Below are positions 18,557 to 62,195 of a stretch of DNA of 64,000 nucleotides, piece by piece (the stretch's first letter is position 1; each line of letters starts with the position of its first letter). The stretch lies in assembly GCA_033819885.1 (NCBI GenBank), contig JAQYUZ010000015.1, positions 124,001 through 188,000 of the forward strand, written 5' to 3'. Origin of the DNA: Microbotryomycetes sp. JL201. Taxonomy: Eukaryota > Basidiomycota > Microbotryomycetes. The notes below the pieces were generated by a model. The model searched no databases and had not been told where the DNA came from. It saw only the letters and a list, made by a program, of their open reading frames with translations. Made by a program: the position numbers and the translations under genes.

Positions 18557-19513
18557 ATGACGTTTGACGCGACAAAGCCACCCACAGAGCAAGAAGTCGC
18601 CACGGCGTTCGCGCTCGACGTCATTGACGAGGCTGGCAACCCCGTCCAGCTCGGCTCGCTCGTTTCGACAAACGACGACAAGACGCAGCGCGTCATCGTC
18701 TTGTTCATCAGACACTTTTACTGTGGCTTGTGTATGAATTTCCTGTCGTTCCTCAAATCACGCGTTTCGCCTCAAGACCTCGCAGACGCCAATGTCAAAT
18801 TGATCGTCATTGGCAACGGAGACTGGTCAATGATTAAAGGCTACAGAGAAATGTTGGAACTGCCGTACCCCGTGTACGCCGATGCGGAAAAAAAGACTTG
18901 TGCGTCAGCGAAAACGGTCCTGCCACCTCTCACTCTGGGAGAGACTTTTCCAGACTGACTTTACGTCTTCATGTGTTCTCAGACAATGCTCTCGGCAGTA
19001 AGACCCTCCGAAATCGTCGGCGCTCCCGGCATTTTCGCTGACTGTGTCTGCACAGTGACGAAGCGGACGCTCGATGCGGGTAAGTTTGACAAGCCGCCAG
19101 AGTATATCGTTCGCGGCATGTTCTCAAACGTGGTTGGATCAATCAAAGTGAGCAAAGGCAAAGGCTGTCTAGGATTCGCTCAAGGGCAAAATTGAGACTG
19201 AAGCTTTTCGCAGAGCGCTTTCCGCATTGGCAAGCTGTCTGCCAGCTCGGGAGACATGCGAGTTCTTTTCTTGGTCATCTCTGAAGCGGTTCCGCGAGCT
19301 GAAACGTCCTGCTTTATTCAGCAAGCAAATCGGGGGCGAGTTCGTGTTTGGACCTAGGAACCAGGTCTTATATGCGCACAGGATGGAGGTGAGCCAGGAG
19401 AGGTCACGGGGAAACAATCGCTTATCTGTCTCTGCTAGAACACGCGCGGTCACGCTCCGCTGGCCGAGATTATGGCGGCGGCTGGAGTTAAGTATAACGC
19501 TGCGAAACAATGA
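18557..19513 (+). CDS. PRXL2/AAED1-type AhpC/TSA family protein
   Basis: A thioredoxin-fold protein of the peroxiredoxin-like 2 group. The ATG at 18557 opens MTFDATKPPTEQEVATAF. The CxxC lies in FIRHFYCGLCMNFLSFL, followed by VKLIVIGNGDWSMIKGY and LPYPVYADAEKKTYNALG. Later exons give MTKRTLDAGKFDKPPEY, IGKLSASSGDIKQIGGEF and YAHRMENTRGHAPLAEIM. At least five introns interrupt it. The one inside SGDI-KQIGG (19258-19321) needs a GC donor (gcgagt) to restore this conserved motif. The function is probably thiol redox or peroxide handling; the exact substrate is unknown. Confidence 0.85.
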
Positions 19514-19824
19514 ATGACCGGAAAGAGATTCGCCAACCGATGGCACGCTATCAAGATACCCTTTCGTACCTAGTCATACCTTCTTGTAATGGCGTTCCGT
19601 TCCGTGCTCGATTGACCGCGATGGACTGTCTCGTGCAAATTGCTGCAAAGTAACTTTAAATGCGCGTGATGCATGCACCTTTGATCGTCGAAACACCGTC
19701 TCGAGAGCTCGACATCAGTTCTCTTGCGCTTAGATTCGGCGCGGCTTAGCCAGGAGCTTGCTCCTCGGACATTGCAATCTTTCAAGCGGTGTCTCGAGAG
19801 TGCCTTTCCATCTGAGCACAGGTC
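19514..19824. other. Intergenic, no gene seen
   Basis: 311 bases between two plus-strand genes, probably carrying the promoter of the M50B-like gene. The antisense frame of 71 codons has no support. Confidence 0.4.
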
Positions 19825-21073
19825 ATGGATGGGTATGACTCAAACCCATTCAAGCCGAGGTGAGTGATCATGGCTTTGTCACTCATCGCCAGCGCACCTA
19901 CCGACGATCCGTCGTCTTACCCTGGACCGCTTCGCAGCCACACTCAGTGGGTAACGATCTACGCACTCGCCATCTAGTCGGTACTTCCTGCAAGCGAAAA
20001 GTCACTCCAAGACTCATACTCCTCCGAATTCGCTGCAGCATCGTCGTTCTCAGCATCGCTTGGAATCTCAAGTACGCCCGTACGATTATCTATACGGGAA
20101 AACTTTTGACTGTGGCGTTTCACGAAGGCTGTCACGCCCTTGCAAGTGAGCCCCGCAAGTGGCTTGCACCTCGGCGAAAAGTCGAGATCTGATTTTGCAG
20201 CAATCGACTAGCCGTCATCACCGGAGGCAGGGTCAACTCGATTCAGCTGGACCCAAACATGGGAGGTGTGACCTCGATGGACGGAGGTTGGCTTTTCCTA
20301 AGTGTAAGTCCTTGCCACAACGTGGCTGTTGACCACGAGCTGACTCGTCCTCAAAGCTCCCCGCAGGATGCAAGTGCCATGTTTCGCGAGGCTGAAGAAC
20401 ACAACTGACACTTTACACACAGATATTGGCTCTACTTTCATAGGATCCGCCTTGATCTTTGCATCCTTCGACCAGAAAGCAAGCAAAATTGCCTGTTTCC
20501 CCGTCTGGGCTATGATGCTCTTCGTCATGTGGTGTGCACGCAAAGATCCGTTCGTGCTATGCCATGTCTTGTTCTCTTTAGGCATGAGCTTGTCTCTGTG
20601 CAAGTTCCTGTTCAGTCGACCGGAGCGGTCTCTCGATAGTTCCATTTGCTGACCCTTTGGCAGCAGATATTATTGCCCACGGAGTGTTTCTAAGGTTCTT
20701 CATCATGTATGTCGGCGTCATGAACGTCATGTACACCGGATGGGACATCCTCGACGACCTCGTCTTCCAAAAGTTTGAGGAATCAGATTGCAGCGCATTT
20801 ACTCGCAAATACCCCTGTAGGCAACCAAGCCGAAACTTCTAAAGACACTCATCTGACCTGGGCTTTCGAAAAGGGATGCCCAGCCAAGCCTGGGGCACGA
20901 TCTGGTTCTTCTTCTCTTTCACCGGTCGTGCGTGACACTCGGTTACATGTGCCTTGCCCAATCTTGACTGACTGGGCGTCGCAGTCCTCGCTGGTGTTCT
21001 CGAGGGTCTCGCCTTGTTCAAGGACGAGTTCTCGGAACAGCTCGCCAACGCTCAAACCTTTCTGCCCGTCTAG
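19825..21073 (+). CDS. M50B-like membrane metallopeptidase
   Basis: A multi-pass membrane protein of the fungal M50B group. The ATG at 19825 starts MDGYDSNPFKPR, ended by an intron; then come APTDDPSSYPGPLRSHTQW, a membrane segment with YARTIIY, and LLTVAFHEGCHALA, which carries the zinc-binding HExxH motif. Next are VITGGRVNSIQLDPNMGG, DGGWLFLS, a 13-nt microexon coding for LPAG, YIGSTFIGSALIFASF, a membrane segment with FPVWAMMLFVMW, IMYVGVMNVMYTGWDILDD and a C-terminus ending LANAQTFLPV. About eight introns interrupt it. One (20370-20422) needs a gcaagt donor. The exon boundaries around 20530-20680 are uncertain. The stop overlaps that of the convergent GNAT gene in a shared CTAG. Confidence 0.8.
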
Positions 21074-21996
21074 TGCGGCAGCTCGCGAACCTCCTTCTCT
21101 ATCTCTGCTATCCTGCCTCCACGATACCTTGTAACCCAATGTTGCACCTTGCCTCCACCTCTTGCTTGGTCAATGTCTGTCCACATGTCATCTGGCACGA
21201 GCTCAAAGCCCGCTTTCTCTTGCACTCGCCGCGAAGCCTTGTTGCCAACGTAAGCAGAACACCAAATGTCTCTGGCGCCCAGCGCCGGAATCATAAAGTC
21301 GTGCAACAACGCCTTGAGCGCGTACGTTGTGATTTGTTGCCCTTGGTACGACGGTTTGATATAGTCTGCCGGTTCGAGACAGCATGAGAAGCGTTCTGAG
21401 CATTCTATTTCGATCAACTCACATCCTATGCACCAAGCCAAATTGGGATCCCCAACTCTTCTTTGATCGTTGACCGCTTTTTGCTTTGCTCTCTCTTCGA
21501 GGTCTGGCACGGTCTCGTACAACCAACGCCTGATTCCTATGTCTCCCAACCACTCTCCTTGACCTTTTTCCTGTTCTTCTTCGCTCTTGGCCAACCTGAT
21601 GTAGCTGATCGCACCGTTCGGAAACGCTTCACGCCACTCTTGCTCGTCATCATCCTTTTCGCCGTGTTTACCTAAAGCGCTCTCGTAAACTTCAAGCGCC
21701 TTTGTCCAAATGTCGTCATTGAACTGTTTCCAACCTTGAGCATCTTGGATGGTGTAGGGATATGGTGGGCCAGACAATGTCATTGCAATGGTAGGATCGC
21801 TCAACGTCTTTGCTTGCTCTGTGAATTCTTGAACGTCGTCCGAGTATGGAGGCAGAGTCAACGACAGGAATGGTAATGTTGGATGAGGAATGGGTAGGTA
21901 AGGTCGCGCGATGGGACATTGATCACTTGGAACGGTGAACTGCAAGTTGGTCAGACGAGAGATGCGCTGCTGCAAGCCGATCGAAGGTCCTTCCAT
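21070..21996 (-). CDS. GNAT-family N-acetyltransferase
   Basis: The ATG at 21996 begins MEGPSIGLQQRISRLTNLQF. The fold is the RimJ/RimL type: PFLSLTLPPYSDDVQEF, then TIAMTLSGPPYPYTIQDA, an acetyl-CoA-binding and strand region around LAWCIGYYIKPSYQGQQIT, then NKASRRVQEKAGFELVPDD, the typical last motif of this family. A 57-nt intron (gtgagttg...ccggcag) falls in the middle; because its length is a multiple of three and it has no stop, retaining it would insert 19 residues without breaking the frame. The substrate is unknown. The 3' end overlaps the M50B-like gene by four bases. Confidence 0.85.
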   Translation of the reverse strand: MEGPSIGLQQRISRLTNLQFTVPSDQCPIARPYLPIPHPTLPFLSLTLPPYSDDVQEFTEQAKTLSDPTIAMTLSGPPYPYTIQDAQGWKQFNDDIWTKALEVYESALGKHGEKDDDEQEWREAFPNGAISYIRLAKSEEEQEKGQGEWLGDIGIRRWLYETVPDLEERAKQKAVNDQRRVGDPNLAWCIGCELIEIECSERFSCCLEPADYIKPSYQGQQITTYALKALLHDFMIPALGARDIWCSAYVGNKASRRVQEKAGFELVPDDMWTDIDQARGGGKVQHWVTRYRGGRIAEIEKEVRELPH

Positions 21997-22317
21997 TGTG
22001 GTGCCTCGTGTATGTCTTTCTGAAAGAGGCTTGAAACGAGAAAGTACCGGTTTGTGGCCAAGTCAACTGTGCGCTTGACTCGAAACGGAGACCGCGCGGT
22101 GCGGTCAACCGGCGGATCTGCCGCGCTCAATTAAAGACCGCGTTCAGGGGACAACTCGCTCAAAATGCTCTACAGCAATGCACAAAGCAATCTCATGCGC
22201 AACGTAAGCGAAAGCCGCCATCGCGATTATGAAAGGAAGGCTAAGGATCACGTGACTTTTGAAAAGCTCTCCGAAAGACAGTCTTGTCTTGATACAACAT
22301 GTTTGAAAACAAGGTCT
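21997..22317. promoter_or_regulatory. Upstream region of the GNAT gene
   Basis: 321 bases upstream of the GNAT ATG and downstream of the hydrolase-like gene, both on the minus strand. It contains GATCACGTGAC (CACGTG at 22249-22254). No ORF with support. Confidence 0.35.
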
Positions 22318-23052
22318 TCACAATCCACTCCTATCGAGCCACGCCAGAAAACGCTGCCATGCCGCCTCATCTCGTCCGCCTTGCATCAGCGATACAAACC
22401 CGTCGTCTTCGCCTTCGTACCATTCTGATCCGAGTCGCGTCTCTTTGAGCGTATCAAGCTGATCGCCGAGCATTCCGACGGGAAAGTGAGGTTCGTAATT
22501 GAACGAAACGCCGGGTGGCAAATGCTTCAATGTGACCGGATTGTGCAGAAAGAGCCCGGACAATGGGTGAGAAGACACGTATGTTTCTGCCACAAGTGTA
22601 GACATTCCTGACGCCATCATTACGGGAGGAAACGGAGAGCTGGCACTGTTTCGAAGTACCTTGACGAGCTCTGAGGACCTCGACAGTTGGCAAGCTGCTG
22701 GGATCCGGAAAAAGTCAAAGACACGCACCAGACTCTAGCGTCCCCAAAGACGTCTTGTCCAGCTTTGCGTTGTCTGCTTCATGATCCAGTTCGATGACGA
22801 CAGATTCGAAGCCATGGTCTGCGGCGCGTTGCGTCCATGTATGCCAGCCTCTGCTCGCAATATGTTCAGTTTGGCACTGAGCGTACGCGATGTACCTGCT
22901 CACGAGACCGTGTCGATGCCCCGAATACCTACGAAAGCCAGTGGCAGGGCCAGTTGGCGCTCCGCCGTCGGTGAAGGCTTGACTACTGTGCACGTAGTTT
23001 TATATCTTTGCCCAATGGAGCGTAGCAGTCTTTGTCTTGAAGGTTGCAGCAT
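22318..23052 (-). CDS. Alpha/beta-hydrolase-like protein, mitochondrial-type leader
   Basis: Three exons. The ATG at 23052 opens a basic leader (MLQPSRQRLLRSIGQRYKTT) of the mitochondrial type. Then comes LPLAFVGIRGIDTV and, after a splice, RGWHTWTQRAADHGFESVV, where one expects a hydrophobic strand plus loop. After a second splice come ELVKVLRNSASSPFPPVMMA, SGMSTLVAETYVSSHPLSG and LFLHNPVTLKHLPPG. The MASGMSTLVA stretch sits where an alpha/beta hydrolase carries its nucleophile elbow. The pattern resembles the poorly studied fungal YDL057W-like group. No complete catalytic triad can be named. Confidence 0.6.
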
Positions 23053-23248
23053 AGCAGCGCAGTTGGCCAAGCGCGACGGTTGCAATGTCTCCTGTTCGCA
23101 AGCTGGCTCGGCGCCTTTCGCGCGGGTTCGACAACTTCCTTCGTCATAGCCAACGTGTCTCACCTACTCGACTCGACTGCACGCGCTCGCGCTTTATCAA
23201 CCCAGCGACAAGCTCCAACCCACGTGTCGCAATCTATCTTATGCAGTG

Positions 23249-24520
23249 ATGGCCCCGCCACCGTCATCACACCGAACTCACCGCGCCTCGACGCCGACCA
23301 TGGCAGCAGCAGCGGCACCGTCGCATGCACCAGCACATCATCAAATGCAGACGCAGCACGCCAGTACCAAGCGTCAGCAGCAGCAGGCTCACTCGCCGTC
23401 GCGGGCCATCAGCGGTTTGATTCACTTGCCCCAGTCACGCCAACAGGCGTCGCCGAGCCCTCGCAAGCGCACCAGCAAGCACAACAACAGTCAAACTGAA
23501 AAGGCTGCAGCCCGTGAGGCTTCTGCTTCCGCCAAAATGGGCAGTCTCGGCGACGACGACGTGCGACCGACGCCGGTGGAGAACGCGCACCAGTCTGCAC
23601 TACTGCCGCCGCAGCTGACGCCGCCAACGCATCTTCCTGGCGCTGCACCAGCGAGCACGCCGTCAGTGAACCCTGCCCCAGCTTCGGCAAAGGCAAAACG
23701 AACAAAAGGACGCAGCAGCAGTCGCCAATCGAGCCCGCCGCTCGCTTCTGCCTCTGCAGCGGCTCCGACGGCACCCGACACACGCACACACTCGGATTCG
23801 CAAGAGTACACGGGCTCGACTCAGCTTCATGCGTTCGACGCTCTCGCACCATCCTCGTCGAGCGACGAATGGGACATGCCCGCGATCGATTCGCTCGCCA
23901 TTGCTCAGCGTACCAGGGACGCCCTGACCTGGCAGCAGCAAGGATTGAGCAGGTCAAACAGCGGCAACAAGCGAGCTGCAGCCAAGTCTGCGCACAATAA
24001 ACAACGTCCGTCGGCACCAAGAGCCAGTGGCGATGTCGGCGCTGCGAAACCGTCCCGCAACATTGCAAACAGCAAGCCGCAGGCGGCACACCAGTCTTCC
24101 CACGCGTCATTCACCCAGGTTACCCATTCTCACGTCTCGTCTGCACTCACATGGCAGCAAGAGTTGTTGCAACAGTCCGACTCTGCCACGGCCCGCACGC
24201 CTGACTCGCACAAGGGCGTCTCTCCAGCCAAACAACGTCGTCAGCAACAGAAAGACCAAGAGACGTTTGGTCTAGGAGCGCTTGATCTCGCCACGAGCGA
24301 CGTGTCTGCTCATGTCACGCCGAAACAAATAAATACACAGCACGTCCAGAACACTTCCAAGCCCCGTCATGCCGCTGCAACACCCAAAGTAACGCCGTCC
24401 AAGCCGATTGAGGAACGATATGCCGGTCCGACATTCCACAACTCGCCGCTCGCGAGCAGTCTGCCTACACCAAGTTTTTTATTGCGCAAGAAGCAGGCTC
24501 TCGAAATGGCGCAGTCTTGA
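23249..24520 (+). CDS. PNRC-like disordered protein, probable decapping cofactor
   Basis: A single open frame of 423 residues, low in hydrophobics and rich in Gln, Ser, Pro, Ala and Lys, so largely disordered. Near the C-terminus is YAGPTFHNSPLASSLPTPSF, the motif that defines fungal PNRC-like proteins; in animals and yeast the related SLPxP motif binds the DCP1 EVH1 domain and stimulates mRNA decapping. Two copies of ALTWQQ (RTRDALTWQQQGLSRS and SSALTWQQELLQQS) form a second repeated short linear motif. The chosen start is the ATG at 23249; an AG just before it (atgcag) means an upstream exon is possible. The decapping role is inference from the motif. Confidence 0.7.
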   Translation: MAPPPSSHRTHRASTPTMAAAAAPSHAPAHHQMQTQHASTKRQQQQAHSPSRAISGLIHLPQSRQQASPSPRKRTSKHNNSQTEKAAAREASASAKMGSLGDDDVRPTPVENAHQSALLPPQLTPPTHLPGAAPASTPSVNPAPASAKAKRTKGRSSSRQSSPPLASASAAAPTAPDTRTHSDSQEYTGSTQLHAFDALAPSSSSDEWDMPAIDSLAIAQRTRDALTWQQQGLSRSNSGNKRAAAKSAHNKQRPSAPRASGDVGAAKPSRNIANSKPQAAHQSSHASFTQVTHSHVSSALTWQQELLQQSDSATARTPDSHKGVSPAKQRRQQQKDQETFGLGALDLATSDVSAHVTPKQINTQHVQNTSKPRHAAATPKVTPSKPIEERYAGPTFHNSPLASSLPTPSFLLRKKQALEMAQS

Positions 24521-25107
24521 TGATGTCAGTTTGCAGGCTCTAGTTTTGACGCACCGAATAGAATGTGGCTCACGCGATCAAAGAGCAGGTTCGCTTCTCT
24601 GCACGACCACGCCTTCCCAGGTTTTTGATCCGATTTTGCTTTGCCTCTTGGATTTGCGCCTCAAACAATTCCCTTTTCGGCTGTACCTTGTTGTCTCGCG
24701 CTATCGTCTCGGACTACCTTGTCGCGTCTTGCCGTTTCTCGGCCAACTGTTGTTCTCGTTTTTTCACCATTGTTGTGTTGGTACTGCCTGTCTCTCAGTA
24801 AATCATGGACGACATCTCAGTGTCGACATTGCCGTCATTCGACTATCTTTCCTTGATCGTTGTCACGCTCTCCAACTAGCCCGACAACTCCTCCTTGGCG
24901 TTTCTCAGGGGCATTCATCTGTGCCCTTCTCCACTTGACTCTCCCGCTAGCCACTGGTCTTCAACAGCAACTGTGTCTGATTGCAGCCAGTCTTCAACAG
25001 ACTGGATCATTCTCCGTAGCAGGGCACGAGCCGTAGCAATCTCTATTGTTGCAACACGCTCTTCTGCCCCCCCCCCCCCCAAAAAAAAAAATCCTCTGGA
25101 TTGCACC
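24521..25107. other. Convergent 3' region PNRC-like / BUD13
   Basis: 587 bases between the stops of two convergent genes, so mainly 3' untranslated sequence. An open frame runs through (24408-24938), but its translation has no protein-like features. It contains a C14A11 run at 25067-25091. Confidence 0.5.
25067..25091 (+). repeat. Homopolymer pair C14A11
   Basis: Fourteen C followed directly by eleven A on the plus strand, 17 bases beyond the BUD13 stop; BUD13 mRNA would carry it as U11G14 in its 3' region. It is likely to vary in length between strains or sequencing reads. Confidence 0.8.
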
Positions 25108-26543
25108 TCACATGTCTTCGGTCGAGTCAGCGTGCGCCGCAGCATTGTACACCGACCTCGAGTTGATCTTTTGCATGAGCTGCGACTCGAAGCCATTACT
25201 CTGTCATTTCAGAGCATCAGCAGTCCACGCTTTCGCAAGCCACGAGGTCAAACCAACTGACTCTGTCAACGCCATCCCACCTGTATCCAGGCATGATGCC
25301 GAAACGGTTCGGTGGCGGTGGCGGACCAGCGTACTTTGGAAACACAGGACCGCGTGTTTTCTTCTCCTTTTTTTTCTGTACGTAGTTATGGGTCAGCGAA
25401 AAGAACAGTGTCGCGTTATTGAAACAACAAGAATGCGCTGACCGTGAGAAAGTTTGCGGCTGGATCGTTCCAGCGTTCAATGTTGCGTTGCTCTTCGTTG
25501 AGATCTTGATCGTCGGCGTACCTAAATGACACACGCAACCATCAGCCCGCAACCTTGGATGTTGTAACACGATCGAATATGGACTGGCCTGGCGATGCCC
25601 TTTTGTTTAAGCCGCTCTGCTTCTCTCGCCTTTTCTTCCCTGTCACTTCTCTGAACCAAACCTTTGCCCCACTCCATCTTTTTCATCTGTTTCTCGAGGT
25701 CTTCCCTCTTGCGTTGAGCTTCCTCTGCCTTTCTGACTTTGAGGTCAATCTTTTTGCCTGATGCATCACGGTACACTGTCGCGTGAGGATCGGCTCCGTC
25801 ATCATCGTCGTCGGACCCTTGACCTCGATCTCGTCGAGCTTGTTTGATCGCTTCCAATTCTGCGTCCGCTTGAGCTTTCTTGCGTGCCAACTCGGCCTTT
25901 CGTCGCTCGTTCTCGGCTTTCAGCTGAGCGGCACTTTGCAATCCACCTCGAGGTGCTTCTGGTGCAGTTGACGGTGGTTGTTCGTCTTGTGTGATGCCGA
26001 CGATCGCAGGCGCTTCGTCGGCCGGTGGTGGCGGTGACGGCGACCGCTCGTACGTTGGCTCTGCCGGTCTGACCGTGGACCAACTCGTCGAAGCTTTCGC
26101 TCTGAATTGACCTCGTTTTTCCTCGACGACTGTCACCGTGCACGTCTGGGTCAGTTTTGAATCATGTCATCGAGAGAAGGGCTAGAGACACAACGCTATG
26201 CGCAAACGTCGCAGACCCAATATGACTTACCAGGTCTGTTTTCCTCGTCATCCTCGTCATCACGTTGTCTCGCCCATGCCATGCCATCGTCATCGTCAAT
26301 CACCAATCCGCTCGAGCCGCCAGTCGTCCCCGCCTCTCGGCCCGTGCCGTACTTGTCCAACGATCCACCGACAACACCACCATCACTCGAACCGACAAGC
26401 TTGCGCTTCTTCTTCTTGCGTCGTCCTTCTCCGTCGACGGCGGACGCGCCGCTCAAAGTGTCGGACGACGCAGACAGGATCGCATCACGTTTGACACCGC
26501 TCGACATGTACTTTTGAGCGAGGTACGCTTGCAAGTCAGACAT
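25108..26543 (-). CDS. BUD13: BUD13/CWC26, spliceosomal RES-complex subunit
   Basis: Bud13 joins Snu17 and Pml1 in the RES complex, which promotes splicing and nuclear retention of unspliced RNA. The ATG at 26543 gives [20 protein letters not shown], a basic KKKKRK patch, an acidic segment ([20 protein letters not shown]), a long charged helix with [20 protein letters not shown], then [19 protein letters not shown]. The conserved C-terminus is assembled from four exons: [47 protein letters not shown] and [17 protein letters not shown], ending STEDM. The intron before YADDQD (25522-25588) requires a GC donor (gccagt). Confidence 0.95.
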
Positions 26544-26708
26544 TGTCGCAGTCTCGGCCGGTCAGCGAGAACGCGTGGTGTGGATAAGCGTCAGAGAATC
26601 ACTCGACGGCGAGAGAGCTCGGCCTAGAATTAACATGCATCTTGCAAATACTGTTGAAAACGGTTTTGGTGTATTGAGATTCAAATGATCATGCCGTGGC
26701 TCAAATAC

Positions 26709-29077
26709 TCAGACTGCAAGCGGATCAGGTGAAGACGACCTGTCGCCACCGTCATCACTGCGCAGACAGCCTTTCCCATTTCTGCTCGATCGTCTCTGAC
26801 AAGACTTGCATGCGTCCGGACCACGATGACTTTTCCTTGACACGATCGTCTCGCCGACAGATGGCGTCACCGTCGGCTGCTTCCAAGCTTGTTTCTGCAA
26901 TTCTATAGATTTGAGAGCTCGATTGACGTCCCACCAATTCTCTGTTGTTCGACGAGTACGACGGGGTCGATTCCGTAGTTTTGGTTCGGCGATAGATTCT
27001 CTCGAGAAGATTGGATCCCCTCGCAACAATACGTCAGGACTTGATGGCGGTACGCTCTTGACACGAGCATCGAGTCTGTCCGGATCAGCGACTGTGCCCG
27101 CGTCTGGCTCGTACAATGTCTTTGGGATCGTGTCCGCCAGACGGTCGGTTGCGCTCGTGTGCTCGGCAAAGTCTTCATCCGAGTCTGGCACACGAAGCTT
27201 GTTCCTGAACGACGAGCTGCCTGAACGTTCTCTTTTGCGCTTAAGTGGCCTCACAGGCGATGCATCGACGTCTTGGTCGTCGTCGAATGCAGCTTTGCCC
27301 GAATCAAGGATTGGCCACACCGCGCCTTCTGGCTTGGTGTCTTGACGGCTCACCGAAGATCGGAATTCTGGAGGTGTGTCGACCGAGCCAGACAGTGGTG
27401 CGATCGCACGGTGGTCAGAGTCGGATCCGTCCGAGACAAGCGCTTCCGAGGCTTGTTCATCGGACCCAGTCGCCACGATCATGGCTGGAGCAGCGGTCAC
27501 AGAATAGTCTTGTATTGAGTTGACCTGTGGCGAGCCGCTTGAAGGCGATGACGTCCATGTTCGATGCCGTCTTTGACTCGGAGAAACAGGCAAATCAATT
27601 TTGAAAGACACGCGAGGCGCTAGGCAGTCGGCAGACGAGGTCCTCGTGGGCAGTACAGCAGCTCGAGACGCCATTGACGGTCCCGTCAATCCGAGGAGGA
27701 CTTGCTCCTGATCCGCAAGCCCATCCGTCTCGGTTTTCACTGGCGATGCTGGAGGGGAGGGTGCGTCCTGCCTGCCACAGGGCGTCCGATCTGGCACTGA
27801 CATTTTCAGTGTCAGATCCACCTGAACAGTCGTCTGCTCTTGAGCGACATGTGAGCTCGCCAGGTCAAGCGGTAATTCGACCGACGTCTGCGAGCAACCA
27901 GCAACGTCTTCGTCTACAAACGTGATCAAGTCTCGAGTGAAAGCTGCCATTAAATCTACAGGCGACTCGTTCTCGTCGTTCATGATGCATGAGAACATGG
28001 ATGACATGGTCTGTTGAGCGGGCGTCAAAGGCGTGTCGAGAGCGACGTCGATGGCAACCTGTTGTTCCGGAGTTTGAGCCCTCTGCGGTCGATCAAGGGC
28101 AGCGGCCTCAATAGGATCATCTGCAAGGTTGAACGGTAGCATGTCAGTGTACAAACATAATAAACGCAGGCACGTTCAAAGCCTACCATGTTTGATGCTC
28201 TGCTGCCGCTCAACTTCGACATCCTCCCTAACGATTGGCAGCTCTGCCGAGCCCTTGCCCAGCTCGAGGTCTATCAATGTTGGCTCGCTGTCAAGGTCAG
28301 GATCGGCCAAGGTCTTGTCCGGTAAGAGAGGCGAGGCACATATCGGTGAACTTGACAAGCGCTCAAGAGCGCTATTCATTTCCTGCCAAACACTTTCCAG
28401 TGAGGAGGGAGCCGATGGACGCTCGTGCAGAATTCTCGTCGGAGTACGATCATTGGCTTCGCGAACCGGCGAGGCGGTGTAAACCGTCGACGTCTCGAGC
28501 GAATGCGTCAAAGTCCCTTGTACTGAACCGACGACGTCATCATCTGGGCTTGCAAGATTCGAGCCTTGAACCCAGTGTTGCTTGTTGTAGACGAACGTTG
28601 CTTTCGGCGGTGTGATCCATGCGCTCCGGTCGACAGCTGTGGCGAACCTAACTCGCTTCTGGCCTGCTGCGTTGTGTGGCGTGGTTGCTACGATCGGCGA
28701 TAGCATATGCACATCATTGTGTCTTGGTGGTGACCGGGCTGTCGTGCGTGCGAGGTCGTTTGGCGGCGATGTCGATGGCGCGTGGGTTTGTTCACTCCTC
28801 AAGTCCCACGATCTAGGAATACCATACTTGGCGACGTGGTCCACGAGCGCAGGAGACACACCTGCAGATGACGCGTCAGTGCATGTGCCCAGAGGTGGAT
28901 CATGTCTCTCGGGTACTTGCCTGCGCTGATGGCGCCTGCCAAGTCCAACTGGCCAGCCTGCAACTGAACGAGCACACCTTGACGCGTCGTGAACGAGTGA
29001 GAGTCGAGTTTACATGCAATCTCGTACTTGCGCTTGTCTAGGGCAGTCGACCTTGCCGCCGTCGTCGTCGTCGCCAT
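26709..29077 (-). CDS. Large disordered protein with conserved N-terminus
   Basis: Three exons. The ATG at 29077 begins MATTTTAARSTALDKRKYEI and continues to RQGVLVQLQAGQLDLAGAIS, a compact helical region. A 59-nt intron (28862-28920) with a gcaagt donor leads to VSPALVDHVAKYGIPRSWDL. A second intron, near 28130-28187, joins SIKH to DDPIEAAALDRP. The remaining 600 or so residues are acidic and Ser/Thr/Pro-rich, with many S/T-P sites, a basic RPLKRKRERSGSSS patch (likely a nuclear signal), PRRTRRTTENWWDVNRALKS and a Cys pair in DACKSCQRRSS. It is probably a nuclear, phosphorylated protein. I do not recognise the family. Confidence 0.6.
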
Positions 29078-32190: not shown

Positions 32191-34244
32191 ATGATGCCCG
32201 CCCGACGCATGCTCATGCGTGCTACTGTGCGCCAAGCGACGCGGACGATGGTGCCGCGCGCCAGTGTGCGCCCGCTCGCGTCGTCGCCGGTCGTCGTTGC
32301 GCCGCGGGTCATGGCCCCGACAGCGTCAGTCCGAGACCTCCGCGCGCGCCCTCATCGCGCTGGGTGCTGACATCCTTCCCTTGATCACTGTTTGTGGACA
32401 CTGCCAGTCCGATCAGGCTGTTTTCGTCATCCGTGACGAGCCTAGGTCAGTCCATCGCGGTCCCGGCTCAGACCGACGACGGGCGCGCACGGACGGCACT
32501 GACGTACAACGCCTCGTCGCACGCGTACACACGCACGCACACAGACGTCGAGACGGTCAAAGTGCCCTCACTGGCAGAGTCCATCTCGGAAGGCACGCTC
32601 AAGCAATGGACAAAGAAGGAGGGCGACTACGTCGAGGCGGACGAGGAAGTCGCCTCGATCGAGACGGACAAGGTAAGCATCAATCGTCAACCTGATCATG
32701 TTTCTCATGACGCCAGGCGCCGAGCTCACCCGGCGCATCGTCGCCCACACGCAGGTCGACATCTCTGTCAACGCGCCAAAAGCTGGCGTCATCAAAGAGC
32801 TGCTTGCCGCAGAGGAAGACACAGTCACTGTCGGACAAGACTTGTTCAAGATTGACGCAGGCGCAGCACCGGAAGGAGGTACGGCCAGCGCGACCTGAGA
32901 ACTCGCAAGCGCGCTTGCTCCACAGAGAGCTAACCGAACACGCTGCTTTCAATCAGGCGCAAAAAAGGAAGAGTCTGCACCCAAGGAAGAAAACAAACAG
33001 GAGCAAGAAGCACCAAAGGAGCAGGAAAAGCCAAAGAAGCAAGACTCAGAGTCGGCACCCAAGAAGGAAGAGTCCAAGCCGGCAGAGCCGAAAAAGACTG
33101 ACGAGCCGAGGCAACCAAAGCCCGCACCTCAGAAGCAACAACAACAACAGAAAGAGTCAAAGTCGTCCGAGGAGCCCAAGCCGGCACCCGCGTCTGGCTC
33201 ACGAACCGAGACGAGGGCAAGTTCTTGCCGAGATATCCTGTGCTCGTAAACGGACCCTATCTGACGAGATCGTCTCTTTGGATATTGACAGGTGAAAATG
33301 TCGCGCATGCGCTTGCGCATTGCCGAGCGTCTCAAGCAATCGCAAAACACGGCCGCATTCTTGACAACGTTCAACGAGATTGACATGTCGGCGCTCATGT
33401 CGTTCCGCAGCAAGTTCAAGGACGATATTCTCAAGCGCCACGGCGTCAAGCTTGGCTTCATGTCTGCTTTCGTCAAGGCATCTTGCCTCGCCTTGCAAGA
33501 GATTCCCGTCGCCAATGCTTCAATCGAAGGCGACCAGATTGTGTACCGCGACTACGTCGATGTCTCTGTCGCCGTTTCGACCGAGAAGGGTCTCGTCACG
33601 CCCGTGCTCAGGAACGCCGAGAGCATGTCTTTCTTGGACATTGAACAGGGCATCGTTGGTCTTGGCAAAAAGGTATGTTGTTCTGTTGTTCTCTCTTGCT
33701 AAAAAGTCGAATTGACGCGATCGGTTTTCAGGCTCGTGACAACAAGCTTACGCTCGAGGACTTGGCTGGTGGCACGTTCACTGTGTAAGTACTATCCGTT
33801 GTTGTCTGATTGCCTTGCATCCTGCTGATCAGGGTTGAATTGCCGCTAGCTCAAACGGTGGCGTGTTCGGCTCGCTTTACGGCACACCCATTATCAACAC
33901 GCCTCAATCCGCTGTCCTTGGTGCGGCCAATTGATAGAGCGCACAATCCCTTTTTTTTTCGCTAATTGCTATCATTTTGCTTCTCTAGGCATGCACGCCA
34001 TCAAGGACAAGCCCGTTGTCGTTGACGGCCAAATCGTCATTCGACCAATCATGGTGGTCGCACTGACGTGGGTCTTGGCCTGCATTGTAGATTACGTCTG
34101 TCAGTACTTTGTTGCTGACAATTTCCGCTGTCATGCTACAGTTATGATCACCGATTGCTTGACGGCCGAGAAGCAGTCACGTTCTTGGTGCGCGTCAAGG
34201 AGCTGATCGAAAACCCGGCGCTGTTTGCTCTGTCTACTCGATAG
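32191..34244 (+). CDS. KGD2: Dihydrolipoamide succinyltransferase, E2 of 2-oxoglutarate dehydrogenase
   Basis: E2 core of the TCA-cycle 2-oxoglutarate dehydrogenase complex in the mitochondrial matrix. The ATG at 32191 opens an Arg-rich presequence ([18 protein letters not shown]). The lipoyl domain reads [20 protein letters not shown] and then VASIETDK, whose Lys is the lipoylation site; an intron follows directly, before [18 protein letters not shown] Lys/Glu/Pro linker takes the place of a peripheral-subunit-binding domain, as is normal for eukaryotic E2o. The catalytic domain runs from [19 protein letters not shown] to [15 protein letters not shown], with His and Asp of the HxxxDG motif present. 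About eight introns; the one before KMSRMRL (33217-33291) needs a gcaagt donor. Confidence 0.96.
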
Positions 34245-39477: not shown

Positions 39478-40347
<870 letters not shown>

Positions 40348-42414: not shown

Positions 42415-43202
42415 ATGAAACCCTTGCTGACCATGCCTCAACATACTTCATCTGCCCAGCTTCAACTTGGGCTGTACTTGAATTCACGCCCTTCCCTCAT
42501 GTACCCTTCTCATCAGCGTGAGTCCTCAAATGCGCCTGTTGAGCAAATTTGGGACCATGCCCGGGTTTGCGAGCACGTCGAGTAGTTCTAGGGCTCGCTG
42601 ACCATGAGCTTTTGCGTAACTCCGTCTGTCCGTGCTTCCGGATCTGCGGGAACCGAATCGAGCAGCGACCGGCCAGCACAATGGCTATCACGAGGCCTAC
42701 AGCCAGCAGCATCCTTACGTCCATCGACCATCCCAGCAACACTACCAGCATCCGGCACAGCATCATCATCAGCTTTCGGGTCCGCCGCAAGCCCACCACG
42801 CCGTCCCGTCGAGTGGAGCAAGCTCTGCCTCGAGCCGATCTTCGTCATCAGCGCAGCCAAAGTCCGCGCTGAGCGGAACAGCCTCAAACATCAAACGCGA
42901 ACCGTCCATGCCAGCGCTCAAACAGCACGCTTCATCTAAGCAAAAGGCAGATGACGCGGTTGGCGCCAAAGTTAAACGGACCCGCAATCGCAAACCCAGC
43001 TCTTGTCAGTGGTCCGGTTTTATCTTCTTTGTGATCGTTGTCATGCTGAACCTGATTGTCTCGCAGGTGTGCAATGCAGAAAAAAGAAGCTGAGGTGCAA
43101 CAGGGCGAGTCCGTGCGACCAATGTACACTCAAAGGAGAGCAGTGCAACTGGGACGAGTAAGTCGGGCGAGAGTAGTGAGAGAGTCTGCTGCTAACTACA
43201 AC

Positions 43203-43240
<38 letters not shown>

Positions 43241-46174
43241 AGTGCTGTGCCTCTGTTCGACGCTCGGTGAGCTTCCCCGGTGTTGTCCGTTGTTTCGGAC
43301 GTCACTGACACGATGACGCAGCGCCGAACACGACGCAGACGAGTTGCGCGCTCAAGTTCGCCGATTGGAAGCGCTCGTGGCCCATCTAACGTCGCAGCAA
43401 GAATCCAACTCGAATGCGCGCTCCTCGTCGCCAGGCTCTTCTGCGTCTGGCGACCGAAGTCCTGGCGCCGACCATGTACACTCGCCGACTGTCGTTCAAT
43501 TCCCATCAGCAGGACGTCCTGCACTCCGACCTTCCTTGTCTTCCGAATCGCAGCAAAACAAAACCAAGCTCGACCTGCGTGCCAACGACTTGTGCGAAGG
43601 CATTGCTAAGCTCGTGATCAAGGAGTACTGCGTCGTTGACGGTTCTGGTGAAGAGTCATGGGCGCCCAACGGCCAACGCGGCACGCCTTTCATCGAGGAA
43701 GCTGCGTCGTTTTTGGCCAACATGCCTCAGAACTTCGGCTTGACTTCCGAAATGCCCAAGTTTGCGCCGCGAGGATTCGGCGGAAGTACATCTACGGCTA
43801 TTGGCGACCAGATGCAGTCGCCCGGACCGAGTGAGGCGAGCACCATGTCATCGGAGCCGAGTCCTGGACCGCTGGGCAGCTCGTCTTTCCATCGTGCGGC
43901 GCCACCGCTGTCAGAGGCACTCAAGTACTTACCGACGCCTAAGGAAGCGATGTCTACATACACGTACTATTCGGGCTACGTCAGCTGGCAAGTCTCCTCT
44001 CGCGGATGTGTGCCCGGATGGGTAGCTGACCCGATACTTGCAGGTACGCGCACATAGTCCACTTGCCATCCTTCGAGCAACAGTGGGCGAAGCTGTACGA
44101 GGATTTGAAGCTAGACGACGAACAGAGAGTGAAGCAAATTGACCCGTTCTTTGTCGCCACGTTCCTCGGCGTTTGCGCGACAAGTCTCGCCATGATGCCG
44201 GCCAAGCGTGCCTTGCGCGACGGCTTTGGCGCGCAAAAGTCGAAAACGGTCGACAGGTGGCTTGAAGGCGCCATGGTAGCCCTAACTTGCGGACGGTTCC
44301 TCGACAATCCGTCCGTTGACAGCGTACGGTCCGTTACCGTCCTTTGCACGTACTTTGTGTTTATGGCGCACGGAGAATCGTCCGGTGCTGGCATGGGCCT
44401 CTTGTCGCTTGCTGTGCAAGTTGCTATGTCCCTCAATCTCCATCGCGACCCCGACCGCACGCCGGGCAAATTCACCTTTTTCGAGGCCGAAAACCGACGA
44501 CGACTGTTTTGGAGCTTGTTCACGCTTTGTATCTTGTCATCGGCATCACTAGGTCGAACGTGGGCCGTATTTGACCTCAACCACGTCGATTGCAAGCTGC
44601 CTCTTGATTGTCACGACCACGAGATTTTCGATCAAGAAACGGCAGAGGCCGCAGTTGCTAGCCGCAAACGCAAATTTGAGGAAACTCCGATGACGAGCTT
44701 GCTTTTGAGGGCCAAACTCGCTGTCATGGCCAAAAAGATCAACGACAAGGCGTTTGGTATCCACCCTTGCTCTTATTCGACCGTGCTCGAGCTCGACAGG
44801 GATCTTAAGGAGTTTGAAGATTCCATTCCATCGAGGTACCAGTTGCGCTTGGACAGCGTCGGAGCGCTGGTCAGACGCTCACCCCACGTGACCGTGACTG
44901 AGATGCGAGCCTGGTGAGTGGCTGGTGGCATTGTTTCAACCCCCTACAATCTGAAGGCCTGACCGCAAATCTGTCCTGTCTAGCATGCTCCACATCTCGA
45001 TCTGCACCGAGTTCATCCGGATACACAGGCCTTGGCTCGTGCTCGCCGGCAGCAATGAGCTCTACCAGTTCTCGCGCGACCGCTTGATCCAGTATGCCAA
45101 GCTCATGATCGCCATCTACCGGTCGCCATCGTGCTCGAACCATCCATGGGGAGGCATGACCTACAAGGCTGCATCCGCGGCCGTCGTACTGGCTATCGAC
45201 ATTCTAACGTTCCCGACTGGCGGCGAGGTGGAGAGCATCCGAGCGTTGCTCAAGGCGACTGCGAGTCAGATGGAGAGGTGGGAGAAAGAGTCGGTGAGGA
45301 TATCGAGCTCGAAGCTAGTCTGTCTACCTCTGCTGACAGTCTGTACTGCTCGCAGTGCATTTCGCGCAAAGGCGCCCGAGTGATTCGATTCCTACTGGCG
45401 AAAGAGGCGGCGATCGTGGCGCAGCGCGAACATAGACGTGATCAAAGGACAGGAAAGCGAGCACGAACTGCTGACTATTCATCGTTCCCAAACCACACCG
45501 TCCGGCAGACTCTTGACCCGTTGTTCGAGGATTACCCGCTTGTACAAGCCGGTCTGCCAGAGCATCCATACGTGGCGGACGAGTATGATCTCCGACGACG
45601 AGTGCCCGAGACGTACGTCGACACGCCATCGTACGCCGCGTCGGCCGTATCGTACGAGTCGGCTACGCCGGCTCAAAGCGATTTCGCCGAGCCTCGTGTT
45701 GCCGCTCCTCTCCCAAAAACGAGCACAGCATACGCTGCGACTGTGCCGACTCCTGTTTCCGGTGTCGACGTCCATTTAACGCCAGACGTGTACGATCTCA
45801 ACTTTGGCATGCCAGGCTCGATCCTCAACGAGTTTGCGTTCGACTTTGCTGTACCGTCATCGACTTTTGACATTGATGGCGACTTGCAGTATCAGCTAAA
45901 CTCGGGCAACGCTACAGTTTCGTTACCATTGGACCTCAATTCGCTGGACACGACTGCTGGAGACCCGAACCGACTCGACTCGAGCTCGCAAAAGTCGTCT
46001 CTACACTCAGACTTCTCCTCCAACGGCCTTTTAACACCCGTGTCACAGGCACCATTACCGCTCGTGAACAGTATCGCTGCAAAGCACGACATTTTGCATC
46101 AAAAACCGCACCACATGCCGCCGACTTACACAAGCTCGGCCGCGGCGACGCCAGCATCACATGTATATTGTTAG
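42415..46174 (+). CDS. Zn(II)2Cys6 transcription factor with fungal_trans domain
   Basis: A nuclear regulator. The ATG at 42415 starts MKPLLTMPQHTSSAQLQLGL; the next exon is His/Gln-rich. The binuclear zinc cluster is CVQCRKKKLRC, then CDQC and C in KGEQC, exactly C-x2-C-x6-C-x5-C-x2-C-x6-C. The codon of its first Cys is split by the intron at 43005-43066. A linker and a dimerisation coiled coil (ELRAQVRRLEALVAHLTS) follow. The middle domain runs from YYSGYVSWYAHIVHLPSFEQ through LSLAVQVAMSLNLHRDPDRT to FEAENRRRLFWSLFTLCIL, the fungal_trans signature. The C-terminal 250 residues are acidic and Ser/Thr/Pro-rich, like an activation domain. Intron 43158-43242 carries 35 consecutive T. Targets are unknown; secreted-enzyme genes flank it on both sides. 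Confidence 0.9.
43204..43238 (+). repeat. T35 run as polypyrimidine tract
   Basis: Thirty-five T directly before the gcag acceptor of intron 43158-43242 in the Zn2Cys6 gene, about 41 percent of that intron. It is an extreme polypyrimidine tract and a likely length-variable locus. Confidence 0.9.
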
Positions 46175-46796
46175 ATAGGGTGTGTATATGAGGTTGTACA
46201 TGGATCGATTGGGCCGAAAAGCAGTTCAGGTGTAGAATCGAATTGATGAATTTCAATAAAATTGTCGAACGGCGCAGCATCAACTGCTCACGGGTACCAG
46301 TGGCTCATTGATCGTCGCAAATCATGTGCAATCGACTAGACGAACACGACCTTTGACGACCGCGGTTGTACAATTCTCAATCGCTCGCCGCGTTCGGCGC
46401 ACACCGAGCTCATGGAGCCTTTAGACGCTCCCGACGTCGGAAAGAAGAGTCCCAGTCGACCGGGGGACAACACTCGTCGAATAAGGATTGTGGTTCTAGT
46501 TGATGTCTTGTTGCTACCGCGAAAAGATAATCGGCGACCTATTCGCAGAGCCAAACGCTTCAGCTCGACCAACCATTGGGCCGTCAACCATGCTGCCGGT
46601 CGCCTCTTTGCTTCGTTGTGCCCATTGCATCAGTACCCTGGACGTTTTCGATACTTTCCTTCGACTCTGTAGCGCTTGATCGAAATCGAAAACCGACTGA
46701 CGCCCCATCGCCACTCGAAACCAATCCGGTGTGTCATCTCCGTCCCAGGTAAACCCGACTTCGGTCTTATCAGCGACAGCCTCGTTCAAGCCGATC
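46175..46796. other. Intergenic before the beta-helix gene
   Basis: 622 bases without a supported gene. A minus-strand frame (46514-47098) overlaps the next gene's coding region and reads as its shadow. Confidence 0.45.
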
Positions 46797-48616
46797 ATGT
46801 CCAATATGCCTCCGTCCATCTTGTTGTTGATACTTTTGGCAACGTCATTGCTCGTCGCGGCCGAGAGTCCCTCGAAACCGGTTGCCTTGCCTTTCGGACC
46901 TCGCTCGACGCCTTCTGTCAACGTTCCCCGCCCTACCCTGATGCCATACGAAGCGGTGCAGAATATTCTGTCGAAAGACAAGGGGCACGCGCACACGCAA
47001 GAAGTTGACGGAACAACGCCAGGTTTGCCAGACGATATAAACAGTCTGAAGGTTGACCACAACGAAAGAGGTTTGATGGAAGAACGTGCGGCAAGCATGA
47101 AAGACGAAGGGACTTTAGGTATGAGCCTGAACAGGCGTCAGACGGGGACAACATGTGTTGGAAGCTGGGTGAGCCTTCATTGTGTGTCGACCGGTCAAAC
47201 AACAGTCTGACGCTTGGTGCTCGAGGCAAACGACACGTACATTTCAACACTATTCTATTATGGAGGTACCGGCTACACTGTCTGTGAGCTGAGCAGCAGC
47301 ACAGTGTATTTCTTGTGTGGATGGCTGACGAATAACACCGAGGAACAGCTCTTTGCCCAGGAGCACAGATCCCGATGGACAATGCCGCATTCTTCTACTG
47401 GCCAAACCAGACTTTGACAACCCAGGGCAATCCGACGGACGCCACCCGCGCCCAGCTCTACATTCGCAATACCAACATCAGTTGCCTCGTATATGGAGGT
47501 CTCGACAACACTCACTACACCAAAGTAAGCTGCCTCCTCTGGCAGGCGCAAACCGGTGTGACCGATTGTGGCTTGCGCAGATTCAGAACATCATACTCGA
47601 TGGCGGACGTCCTGCACTTGGTCAGCTGTTCAACGTACCAGCAACTATTTCTATCGGCGGCAACAACATTGGTCAGACAGTTCAAAATGTCAAGGTGTTT
47701 GAGCCGCGAGGTTGGAGTGCGTTACATATCCAGGAGGGCAGCAACTTGGGGTGTTCAGGAGTGCAGATCCTGAACAATCAGATCGGCCCCTGTGGGTGGG
47801 GCCCTGGAGGCGCCCAGTTCAGAAAGCGTCAAGCAGGCCATGTTCCAGGCGAATGGGCCGATGGAATCAGTCTTGCAAGTTGCTCGACGGTTTGCAGTGT
47901 TGCGTGCACCTGGCTGACTCGGGCTTGAAACGCAGGCGTGTAAGAATGCAGTCGTGACTGGTAACACGATTCTGGATGCTACAGACGGAAGTATCGGTGA
48001 GCCTGGTATGGACGCTACCCAAAAGACGATATTAACTTGTTATACAAGTCATCTTTGGAGCGCCTGGCTCTCGAGTTGCCAGCAACCAAATCATTGCCCG
48101 CACCCGACAAGCGCTCGGCGGAATCAATATGGTGGACTACAACCCATTCGGGGGTTCATATGCCGGAGTGACAGTCACTGCAAACACCATCACGTCTGAC
48201 ACGCAGTTCATCAAAGTTGGGATCGCGATCGGCACGCTGTCCTGGGTCAGTCTAATCGCGTCTGCGCACCATCGTTACTGGTTCTGATACTTTATGCTCA
48301 GGGCACGGACAATCGAACCATAGCCAGACCTTCGGGCGGCACAGTCTCGAATAACATCTTGCAAAGCGGGCTCACAGGCTACTTTGGCTATGGCATTTCA
48401 ATCTCTGGCATGAACTTGACTACTGTCACTGGCAACAAAGCCACAAAAGCCAAATTTGGAGGCACCTACACTTCAAGCTGCTTCCAGTCGATAGCGCCAC
48501 TGCCGCCGTTCCAAGCGTTCGTTCAGGACAAGTACACGACTCCAACATGCAAAATTGACAATAACTTTGTCAAGACGAACAACGTCGTGTTCCCCATTTG
48601 CATCGGTCCGAAGTAG
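46797..48616 (+). CDS. Secreted parallel beta-helix protein
   Basis: The ATG at 46797 starts MSNMPPSILLLILLATSLLV, a signal peptide. A propeptide-like acidic region is followed by TCVGSWANDTYISTLFYYGG, where a splice joins W and A, then VCELSSSTVYF. The rest has right-handed beta-helix periodicity: IQNIILDGGRPALGQLFNVP, QTVQNVKVFEPRGWSALHIQ, SGVQILNNQIGPCGWGPGG, DGISLACKNAVVTGNTILDA, VASNQIIARTRQALGGINMV and GVTVTANTITSD. Such proteins in fungi are pectin-lyase-fold enzymes or cell-wall proteins, but no pectate-lyase calcium site is evident, so activity is open. About seven exons. It sits between the Zn2Cys6 gene and agmatinase. Confidence 0.8.
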
Positions 48617-48731
48617 AGCAGACGTATTACCCACATCACACAGCATTCAATAGCTTCATCCTCATTTGTCGAATTTAGGTGCATGGTCTTGCATTGCCAA
48701 TTTGTCTACATACCCTCTGCAGGTTATTTTG

Positions 48732-50290
48732 CTACAGCTCGTCATGACCAGCCGATGTTTTGAAAGGCGTCGACATGTCACCATTGAGTTTCATGCCAGA
48801 CACAGCTGGCTTCCTTTCGCCCTTCTTGACTAATAAACTCAAAAATTCTTGAACGAGGTCAGCCGCGACCATGGCAGTCAGCTCGGCGTTGGTATCGAAC
48901 GGCGGAGAAACTTCGACGACATCCAGTCCGACCAAGTTCAGGCCGTTCAAGCCGCGGAGAATCTTTTTAACCTCGCGAGTGGTCCATCCCCCGGGCTCGG
49001 GCGTGCCAGTGGCCGGGGCCATAGAGGGGTCGATCGTATCAATGTCGAACGAGAGATATGTTGGCCTGTTTCCAACGCGTTCTTTGATGGCATTGATGAT
49101 TCCTTGAGTGCCCATGTCCTCGAGGTCGTCAGTCGTCAAAAGCTTGAAGCCGACCTTTTCGTCAAACTCGAGATCTTCGTACTCTGAAAGGCGAGTACGA
49201 ATTCCGGCGTGGATGGATGAAGTCTTTGAGATCAGACCTTCTTCTGACGCTTTCCAGAAGAAGCTGCCGTGCGTGATTCTTGAAGCTTCCGTGATGGCGC
49301 CAACATAACGGACACCATCCCAGGTGTCGATATGTGCGTCAAAGTGAATAATTGAGACCTCTCCATAGACGGGATACAATGCTCGCAGGATGCCGAGCAG
49401 AACCGAGTGGTCACCTCCAAGAGTGATGAAGCGAGGGTGCTCTCTGCCGTCCTTGGCTAACGCCTTGGTACCACCTTGAATTTCTGCGTATTCGGTAGCC
49501 ACGGGACGAGCTAGCAATGTCTTGTATGCCGTTTCGATTTGCGCGAACGCCAAGGTGTTGTCGTACGGACTGAGTGGACTAGGGACACGGTCACGGATAA
49601 GGATGTGAGTCTTGACGCGAGTGGATGCAGAATTGAAACTACTTACATGTCACCGCAATCGACCTGTTGAGGGCGTGCGCAGGATTTTGGATCAGCTAGG
49701 GGTTGAATGGTGTGAGAATTTCAGCTCACGCACAATTTCTGCGCCCTCTTTGAAAGGGTTAAACGCCCAGGGGATAGAGTATCCTCGCGAAGGTGCGTGG
49801 CGTCGGCTGCCTTGACGGATACCGTTCGGACCAAACTTTTCGATTTGAACGAGAAGTGGTTAGCCTATTGCGCGCCGATAAAGCAGGGACTTCTTGCTTA
49901 CGCGAGCTCCATTTCTGTACGAGACAGCCGTGTCGAATGGCGCGCCGATCACTAATCGTTACTTTTTCAGCAAACGGCCCAAGTCGGCCGCTGAGAAGGG
50001 CAGAAATACTTGCCGGCAATATCGAAAGTGACAGACGAATTGTCGAGACACTTGTGGTGAGGTAAATGCGCAAAAGTTGTGATTCCGCTGAACGAAAGAT
50101 CTGGAAGGTTTCCGTAGGTCTCGGCTGCGCGATTTCCATGATGTCAGACCGCGTGAATACTTGTGCTTTTGTGAGGCGACTCGCCCCAAAGATTTGCTTG
50201 ACTGTGAGCGTGATCAGAGCTGGAAGACGCGGACGCGACGCATTCGAGCGCACCGAGAGCGATGACTGCTCCGATGAGAATTGACAACAT
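48732..50290 (-). CDS. Agmatinase/ureohydrolase with signal peptide
   Basis: Hydrolyses agmatine to putrescine and urea, or a related guanidino substrate, with a dimanganese centre. The ATG at 50290 opens MLSILIGAVIALGALECVAS, a signal peptide, as in fungal proagmatinases. Then come YGNLPDLSFSGITTFAHLPH, VIGAPFDTAVSYRNGA, GPNGIRQGSRRHAPS and EIVDCGDIPLSPYDNTLAFA. The metal ligands are in LGGDHSV, HFDAHIDTWDG and SFDIDTIDPSMAPATGTPEP. The last exon (below 49553) is long. The intron after the signal region fits best as 50125-50184 (60 nt, gcgagt donor); a GT alternative would be only 36 nt. It diverges from HRI1. Confidence 0.93.

Positions 50291-58709: not shown

Positions 58710-62195
<3,486 letters not shown>

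Follow-up and report, generated by a model that had tools for sequence, protein, structure and literature searches.

The mean share of GC-AG introns in fungi is given as 1.009% (Frey and Pucker 2020, PMC7072748), with 0.77% in Fusarium graminearum, where AG|GC and AAGT flanks are described (PMC3577648), and 1.85% in a manually corrected annotation of Ganoderma lingzhi (PMC11590231). In addition, the MYB genes of Ganoderma have been called GC-AG-rich (PMC7407476), two P450 introns of Xanthophyllomyces are GC-AG (PMC5516332), and in single genes of two basidiomycete yeasts 1 of 21 and 1 of 18 introns lie outside the GT-AG rule and are reported as GC-AG (PMC9142197). Algal shares reach 39.6% in Aureococcus anophagefferens, 22.2% in Micromonas pusilla and 7.7% in Chlorella (PMC3033335). 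The 5' end of U1 is canonical in the two richest of these algae, and the richness has been linked to high G+C content, its origin being termed an enigma by the authors; Micromonas RCC299 has 64.1% G+C yet 2.7% GC-AG introns, so G+C content is not enough (PMC3033335). About 15-18% of human +2T>C variants still splice (PMC8375439). Here, we analyze GC-AG introns in the basidiomycete Microbotryomycetes sp. JL201, whose genome comprises 17.15 Mb in 92 contigs, starting from a window of 64,000 nucleotides (C7:124001-188000, contig JAQYUZ010000015.1) in which a sequence-only reading had proposed six such introns within 32 kb.

Genome-wide frequency of GC-AG introns

The sequence read comprised the window and 24 stretches of 10 kb (window and L003-L027; L001 and L002 were left out), 304 kb in total. 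A generalized hidden Markov model (GHMM) gene finder was written for the analysis and trained on these 304 kb, allowing no donor but GT, the training set consisting of 528 introns in 155 genes with a median length of 64 nt, the donor GTRAGY, the branch site RCTGAC and the acceptor CAG. For an equal-prior run, the 15 non-GT dinucleotides were given one common small prior at four settings while the flanks remained GT-trained. GC donors were called for 25/537, 26/539, 31/542 and 35/549 introns, respectively. Each of the remaining 14 dinucleotides received between 0 and 2 calls, adding up to 0, 1, 6 and 12 over all of them. At the strictest setting no third dinucleotide is called and GC accounts for 4.7% (25/537, 95% interval 3.0-6.8%; p = 5.6e-10 against 1.009%), which bears out the earlier suggestion of a share far above one percent. 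In a second run, all non-GT dinucleotides shared flanks that had been fitted to GC donors. It yielded 42 GC donors among 575 introns (7.3%), 509 GT donors and 24 calls for the other 14 dinucleotides together (decoys), the best of them being CA with 5; the 95% interval for 42/551 GT plus GC introns is 5.5-10.2%. Correction for detection in each donor class gives approximately 53 GC introns next to 509 GT introns, or 9%, by our own arithmetic. The hand-curated share in the window, 12 of about 112 introns (97 GT and 9 GC called, without the doubtful call at 51888 but with a further four GC and three GT introns modeled by hand), is biased upward since GC donors were sought there.

A pattern search of the whole genome gave a similar picture. 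The pattern xxAAGT N20-45 GCTGAC N5-22 CAG is found 302 times with GC, 150 times with GT, 43 times with GA and 16 times with GG, compared to 59, 41, 49 and 32 times in a control read backwards; some places enter these counts twice, two CAG ends fitting. GA and GG are thus at or below background while GC is twice as frequent as GT. For the GAGT version, GCGAGT occurs 212 times (control 83) and GTGAGT 523 times (control 44). In the 304-kb sample, the downstream pattern follows a random hexamer with a frequency of 0.0059, and from the hexamer counts we calculate chance expectations of about 88, 22, 42 and 21 for the AAGT forms of GC, GT, GA and GG. With any branch site, the sample contains 32 GT and 24 GC donors of the AAGT form.

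The sequence-only reading had tied the excess to a single stretch of 32 kb. The window contains 9 GC among 110 called introns and the other 24 stretches 33 among 465 (p = 0.68). A local cluster is therefore rejected, and it is the whole genome that is unusual, not 32 kb. Overall, the frequencies obtained directly from the sequence suggest that GC-AG introns make up about 5-9% of all introns genome-wide, not about 1%.

Protein-family evidence and the introns of the window

Pfam searches covered 42 GC junctions (41 peptides, L011 introns 6154 and 6279 lying in one) and 24 decoy junctions (22 peptides, with two pairs each in one peptide). A junction was considered spanned if it lay at least 5 residues inside a match on both sides, with each match represented by its best stretch alone and without the marginal GC junctions of KGD2, TIP49 and RNase_T (two cases). 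By this measure 19/42 GC junctions but only 2/24 decoys lie inside a match (Fisher p = 0.002). The families concerned are PDI-like, PRXL2, BUD13, MCM3, aminotransferase (two junctions), PfkB kinase, PLA2_B, Sel1, organic solute transporter, Put_Phosphatase, acyl-CoA dehydrogenase, PRMT_C, hydroxyethylthiazole kinase, amidase, PRMT5_C, Rad51, MutS_IV and MutS_V. Retention of the intron lowers the family score at all 19 spanned junctions, with small drops for acyl-CoA dehydrogenase (144.3 to 129.2 bits), PfkB (102.3 to 87.1), MutS_V (72.4 to 60.1) and PDI (25.9 to 18.6). Of these spanned decoys, the one in an MFS gene (AGGAGT) was taken as exon, since its read-through plausibly forms a membrane helix as judged by eye. 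The other is a 106-nt intron with the AC donor ACAAGT in an AAR2-like gene (L008:9768-9873, minus strand), where the boundary is probably misplaced or the donor truly unusual.

The window holds 12 GC-AG introns. The six proposed earlier have exact coordinates, take the form GC[A/G/C]AGT...AG on the strand given for them and represent the best reading of the sequence in six of six cases. Four of them (19258, 25522, 28862 and 33217) are called by the unsupervised gene finder and two (20370 and 50125) were rebuilt by hand. Six were added, 14466, 43988, 47875 and 60473 by the gene finder and 20600 and 49952 by hand. A search for in-frame GT-AG alternatives (frame kept by length, each end shifted by no more than 30 nt, both splice signals stronger than the 5th percentile) found none for any of the 12.

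In the PRXL2-like gene, the AhpC-TSA_2 match scores 56.6 bits with the intron at 19258-19321 (plus strand, donor GCGAGT) spliced and 22.5 bits with it retained. For BUD13 (25522-25588, minus strand, GCCAGT) the Bud13 match scores 171.5 and 50.0 bits, respectively. The M50B-like gene carries two GCAAGT introns on the plus strand, both placed in hand models. Removal of the first (20370-20422) gives a Peptidase_M50B match of 91.2 bits compared to 61.2 bits on retention and only 58.6 bits in the GT model of the gene finder. The second (20600-20663) was taken from the genome-wide pattern list; the full model including it has an open reading frame and scores 126.6 bits but requires a weak GTGCAC donor at 20534, just upstream. 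A 13-nt exon with an AAG acceptor (20357-20369) sits between a GT intron and the GC intron at 20370. In KGD2 (33217-33291, plus strand, GCAAGT) the Pfam match begins just 3 residues before the junction (60.9 bits, 57.2 retained), and the alignment to solved E2 chains is ungapped there. A conserved segment is restored at four of the six junctions proposed earlier (PRXL2, BUD13 and M50B by Pfam, KGD2 by alignment), and the claim of a fifth did not hold: the agmatinase junction at 50125 lies outside the aligned part and the disordered gene has no family match in the part scanned. The agmatinase gene (minus strand) reads whole in a hand model with two GC introns removed. The intron at 49952-50013 (GCAAGT) restores FDIA|VIGAPFD upon splicing, with an Arginase match of 73.3 bits and none on retention, while the intron at 50125-50184 (GCGAGT), between a signal-peptide-like exon and the body of the protein, joins at residue 35, upstream of the aligned part, and leads to a stop if retained. 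The intron of the disordered protein (28862-28920, minus strand, GCAAGT), called on signals and frame only, matches U1 at 6/6 other donor positions; no family match was found in the first 298 residues scanned.

Among the added introns, the one in MCM3 (60473-60534, minus strand, GCAAGC) lies inside the P-loop domain. The MCM match scores 234.2 bits spliced and 91.4 bits retained, and alignments to solved MCM3 chains are ungapped at the junction. A Thioredoxin match spans the junction of the PDI-like gene (14466-14522, plus strand, GCGAGC; 25.9 bits spliced, 18.6 retained), and the length of this intron is divisible by 3 without a stop, so that the frame is kept on retention. Two further GCAAGT introns on the plus strand occur in genes named by eye, a Zn2Cys6 transcription-factor-like gene (43988-44043), with no Pfam match at the junction, and a secreted beta-helix-like gene (47875-47935), whose protein (46797-48616) has no Pfam match at E 0.001.

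A further GC call, at 51888-52039 (plus strand) in the start region of a ribosomal L22/L17-like gene, was judged false: it is 152 nt long, has the lowest GC score (-5.2) and is not spanned by the Pfam match. Every model of this gene start uses an unusual donor, either GC or AC. Donor-context counts by tail and branch site exclude the call (41 GC introns), while the flank-match, detection and frame counts keep it (42). Between two genes of the window, a run of 14 C is followed by 11 A (25067-25091).

Donor context, splicing machinery and possible explanations

GC donors are found where the rest of the donor is strong. We counted the letters able to pair with U1 at the six positions besides +2 (-2A, -1G, +3A, +4A, +5G, +6T). 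With GC-specific flanks, the GC share for one to six matches is 0/5, 0/62, 1/205, 11/206, 22/61 and 8/12, and in the strictest equal-prior set it is 1/203, 6/199, 12/48 and 6/10 for three to six matches. The other 14 dinucleotides together give 7 calls at four matches, 11 at five and 3 at six (fewer than 1 per dinucleotide) in the former and none in the latter. The mean number of matches is 4.90 of 6 for 41 GC donors and 3.42 for 509 GT donors (p = 6e-19). By donor tail, the GC share is 24/56 (43%) for AAGT, 8/85 for GAGT, 3/36 for AAGC, 2/79 for GAGC and 1/66 for CAGT, and zero for GCGT (0/24) and GAGA (0/23); 37/42 GC donors are GCRAGY. GT donors scored as GC were recovered at 60% with one and two matches, 69% with three, 79% with four, 82% with five and 75% (3/4) with six. 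This recovery is far too flat, and detection bias is therefore not the cause of the trend. A at +3 is favored by GC donors already with GT-trained flanks, though those flanks favor G. The dependence on flank matches is thus a direct observation.

In other respects these introns resemble their GT counterparts. The median length is 64 nt for both, and a CTRAY branch site is present in 32/41 GC and 326/509 GT introns. Stronger branch sites in GC introns were considered and rejected (CTGAC in 23/41 vs 221/509, p = 0.14). The GCRAGY form of 37/42 GC donors does not agree with the ATATCC-type donor of U12-type (minor) introns quoted in PMC3033335. A family search found one U1 gene match (L023:1501), located on the contig of the window about 11 kb further upstream, with the canonical 5' end ATACTTACCTTG, and no second U1 gene, although divergent copies could escape it. 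LUC7 matches occur in one place, and the zinc finger of U1-C (CDYC..HLTHDSAS/VRK) looks conventional. The single U6 gene match has an intact ACAGAGA box. Directly 3' of this box, U6 contains a 67-nt mRNA-type intron, GTAAGA...TAG (L028:1548-1614, G000 contig C63); U6 introns of this kind occur in fission yeast and in a small number of basidiomycete yeasts, and the one here may give a hint of the lineage.

Very probably, judging from these sequence features, the introns are ordinary U2-type introns with a GC donor in which C at +2 is nearly neutral as long as the donor is otherwise strong. Canonical U1 snRNA would recognize such donors through the remaining positions (typically AG|GCAAGT), which are predicted to pair almost perfectly, and the C:A mismatch at +2 would be carried by these strong pairs, a known mechanism. 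We infer that +2C carries little penalty in donors matching U1 at five or all six of the remaining positions, so that T-to-C changes at +2 of strong donors would drift towards mutation balance and GC-AG introns accumulate. In noncoding DNA, GCAA exceeds GTAA 3-4 to 1, a ratio of 0.75-0.79 (across the 304 kb of the window and L003-L027, GTAA is 0.21-0.25 of GYAA). The GC share of the strongest donor contexts comes close to this ratio but does not exceed it, which reads as weak remaining selection, not preference. Tentatively, and at somewhat less than even odds in our judgment, the second intron letter may have become conditional, C and T being exchangeable near mutation balance in perfect donors as this lineage's spliceosome checks +2 less strictly; the 8/12 GC donors at six matches and the twofold GC:GT ratio for AAGT plus GCTGAC genome-wide bear on this proposal, though the AAGT donors of the sample as a whole number 24 GC and 32 GT.

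Several observations weigh against the reading as ordinary U2-type introns with nearly neutral +2C or limit the evidence for it. Predicted U1 duplex energy is weaker for GC donors (median -4.65 vs -5.8 kcal/mol), so compensation is incomplete, and a GC share of 43% in the AAGT context is below mutation balance, which indicates residual selection against GC. Just 12 donors make up the six-match class, and at 23/42 GC junctions no family match spans the splice. The GC-specific flank model took its parameters from the run's own calls and pulls decoys into strong flanks too, 14/24 of them having five or six U1 matches; for the lower bound of the GC share we rely on the equal-prior run with its GT-trained flanks. 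The U1 match itself scores 31.1 bits, under the Rfam cut-off of 69.5, and further divergent U1 genes may have been missed.

An altered spliceosome in this lineage, with U1-C, Luc7, Prp8, U6 or RNA modification changed such that +2 is read as a pyrimidine in good contexts, is possible but on balance doubtful. The GC share among AAGT donors (24/56 in the sample, 302 vs 150 genome-wide) seems far above anything compatible with the totals of 0.77-1.85% in other fungi, the comparison being with totals over all donor contexts, and the same suspicion has been voiced for two algae with canonical U1 (PMC3033335). The 5' end of U1, the U6 ACAGAGA box and the U1-C finger nevertheless look conventional. 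Selection favoring GC in otherwise perfect donors, where a perfect GT donor would bind U1 too tightly, appears improbable. It is in line with the scarcity of GT donors with five or six matches (43 vs 77.9 in column shuffles; 4 vs 10.1 for six of six), but these classes remain below the shuffles with GC added (61 vs 85.5; 12 vs 14.3). Since the GC share stays under the context-matched noncoding ratio of 0.75-0.8, there is no excess that needs selection, and positive selection as the main cause was rejected using this matched ratio (0.75-0.79) rather than the plain C/(C+T) of 0.53.

The sequence-only reading had also hinted at alternative or regulated splicing. On such a view GC donors would be kept since a weak donor permits retention or switching, for example in BUD13. 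GC donors are enriched among alternatively spliced genes of human, nematode and Arabidopsis according to a review (PMC3488318), their total U1 pairing is predicted to be weaker here, and 2/42 GC introns (window 14466; L016 4714) keep the frame if retained. Retention breaks the frame in 40/42 GC introns, however, a rate like that of GT introns (465/509), and regulated retention as a general purpose is rejected on these grounds. Clustering by gene is likewise rejected, with 4 genes having two or more GC introns where 6.0 are expected (two more were found by hand), and the window introns lack an in-frame GT competitor nearby. The role of BUD13 in splicing seems incidental, as family-matched GC junctions also occur in metabolic, repair, transport and methylation genes. 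Regulated splicing finds no support in these measurements, and we consider it very improbable as the reason for keeping GC donors. Least likely is an artefact of sequencing error, misplaced boundaries or gene-finder bias. The call at 51888 looks false and 2/24 decoys also lie inside a Pfam match, but decoy dinucleotides number 0-2 each in the equal-prior run, GA and GG patterns do not exceed their backwards controls, retention lowers family scores without exception (19/19), and no GT donor is available in frame near the 12 window introns.

Comparison with known GC-AG-rich systems

We found no report of a GC-AG share of at least 5% in an intron-rich fungus, which is weak evidence of absence since per-species supplementary tables were outside the search. 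The introns described here share with those of other fungi the AG and AAGT flanks of the GC donor, stated for Fusarium, and a normal AG acceptor. They differ in their frequency of 4.7% to 7.3% of called introns compared to 1.009%, 0.77% and 1.85%. As with human +2T>C variants, GC is tolerated in some donors only, but those are disease and engineered variants whereas here the GC donor is a standing feature of the genome. We infer that this fungus is more tolerant of +2C than other fungi, the cause possibly lying in a less strict check of +2. Gene predictors limited to GT donors would misbuild many genes; in the window alone, 12 introns in 10 genes would be affected, including MCM3, KGD2, BUD13 and agmatinase.

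The GC-AG richness of algae was described in 2011 without being explained, very high G+C content being the suspected cause (PMC3033335). This fungus resembles these algae in its high GC-AG share and canonical U1 5' end, the latter described for the two richest algae. It is unlike Aureococcus (69.5% G+C) and Micromonas pusilla (65.9%) in having 53-55% G+C (54.8% in the window and 52.7% in the 304-kb sample), so the very high G+C that accompanies GC-AG richness in algae, as an association and not a demonstrated requirement, is absent. A fungus combining ordinary G+C content with a canonical U1 would demonstrate that GC-AG richness can arise without high G+C, and the sharp rise of the GC share with the strength of the remaining donor positions provides a measurable rule, open to testing in a small genome. 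If the second intron letter is indeed conditional, this small, gene-dense fungal genome would provide a tractable model for the GC-AG-rich algae. GC-AG-rich genomes are already known from algae; what makes this fungus of interest is its ordinary G+C content and small genome size.

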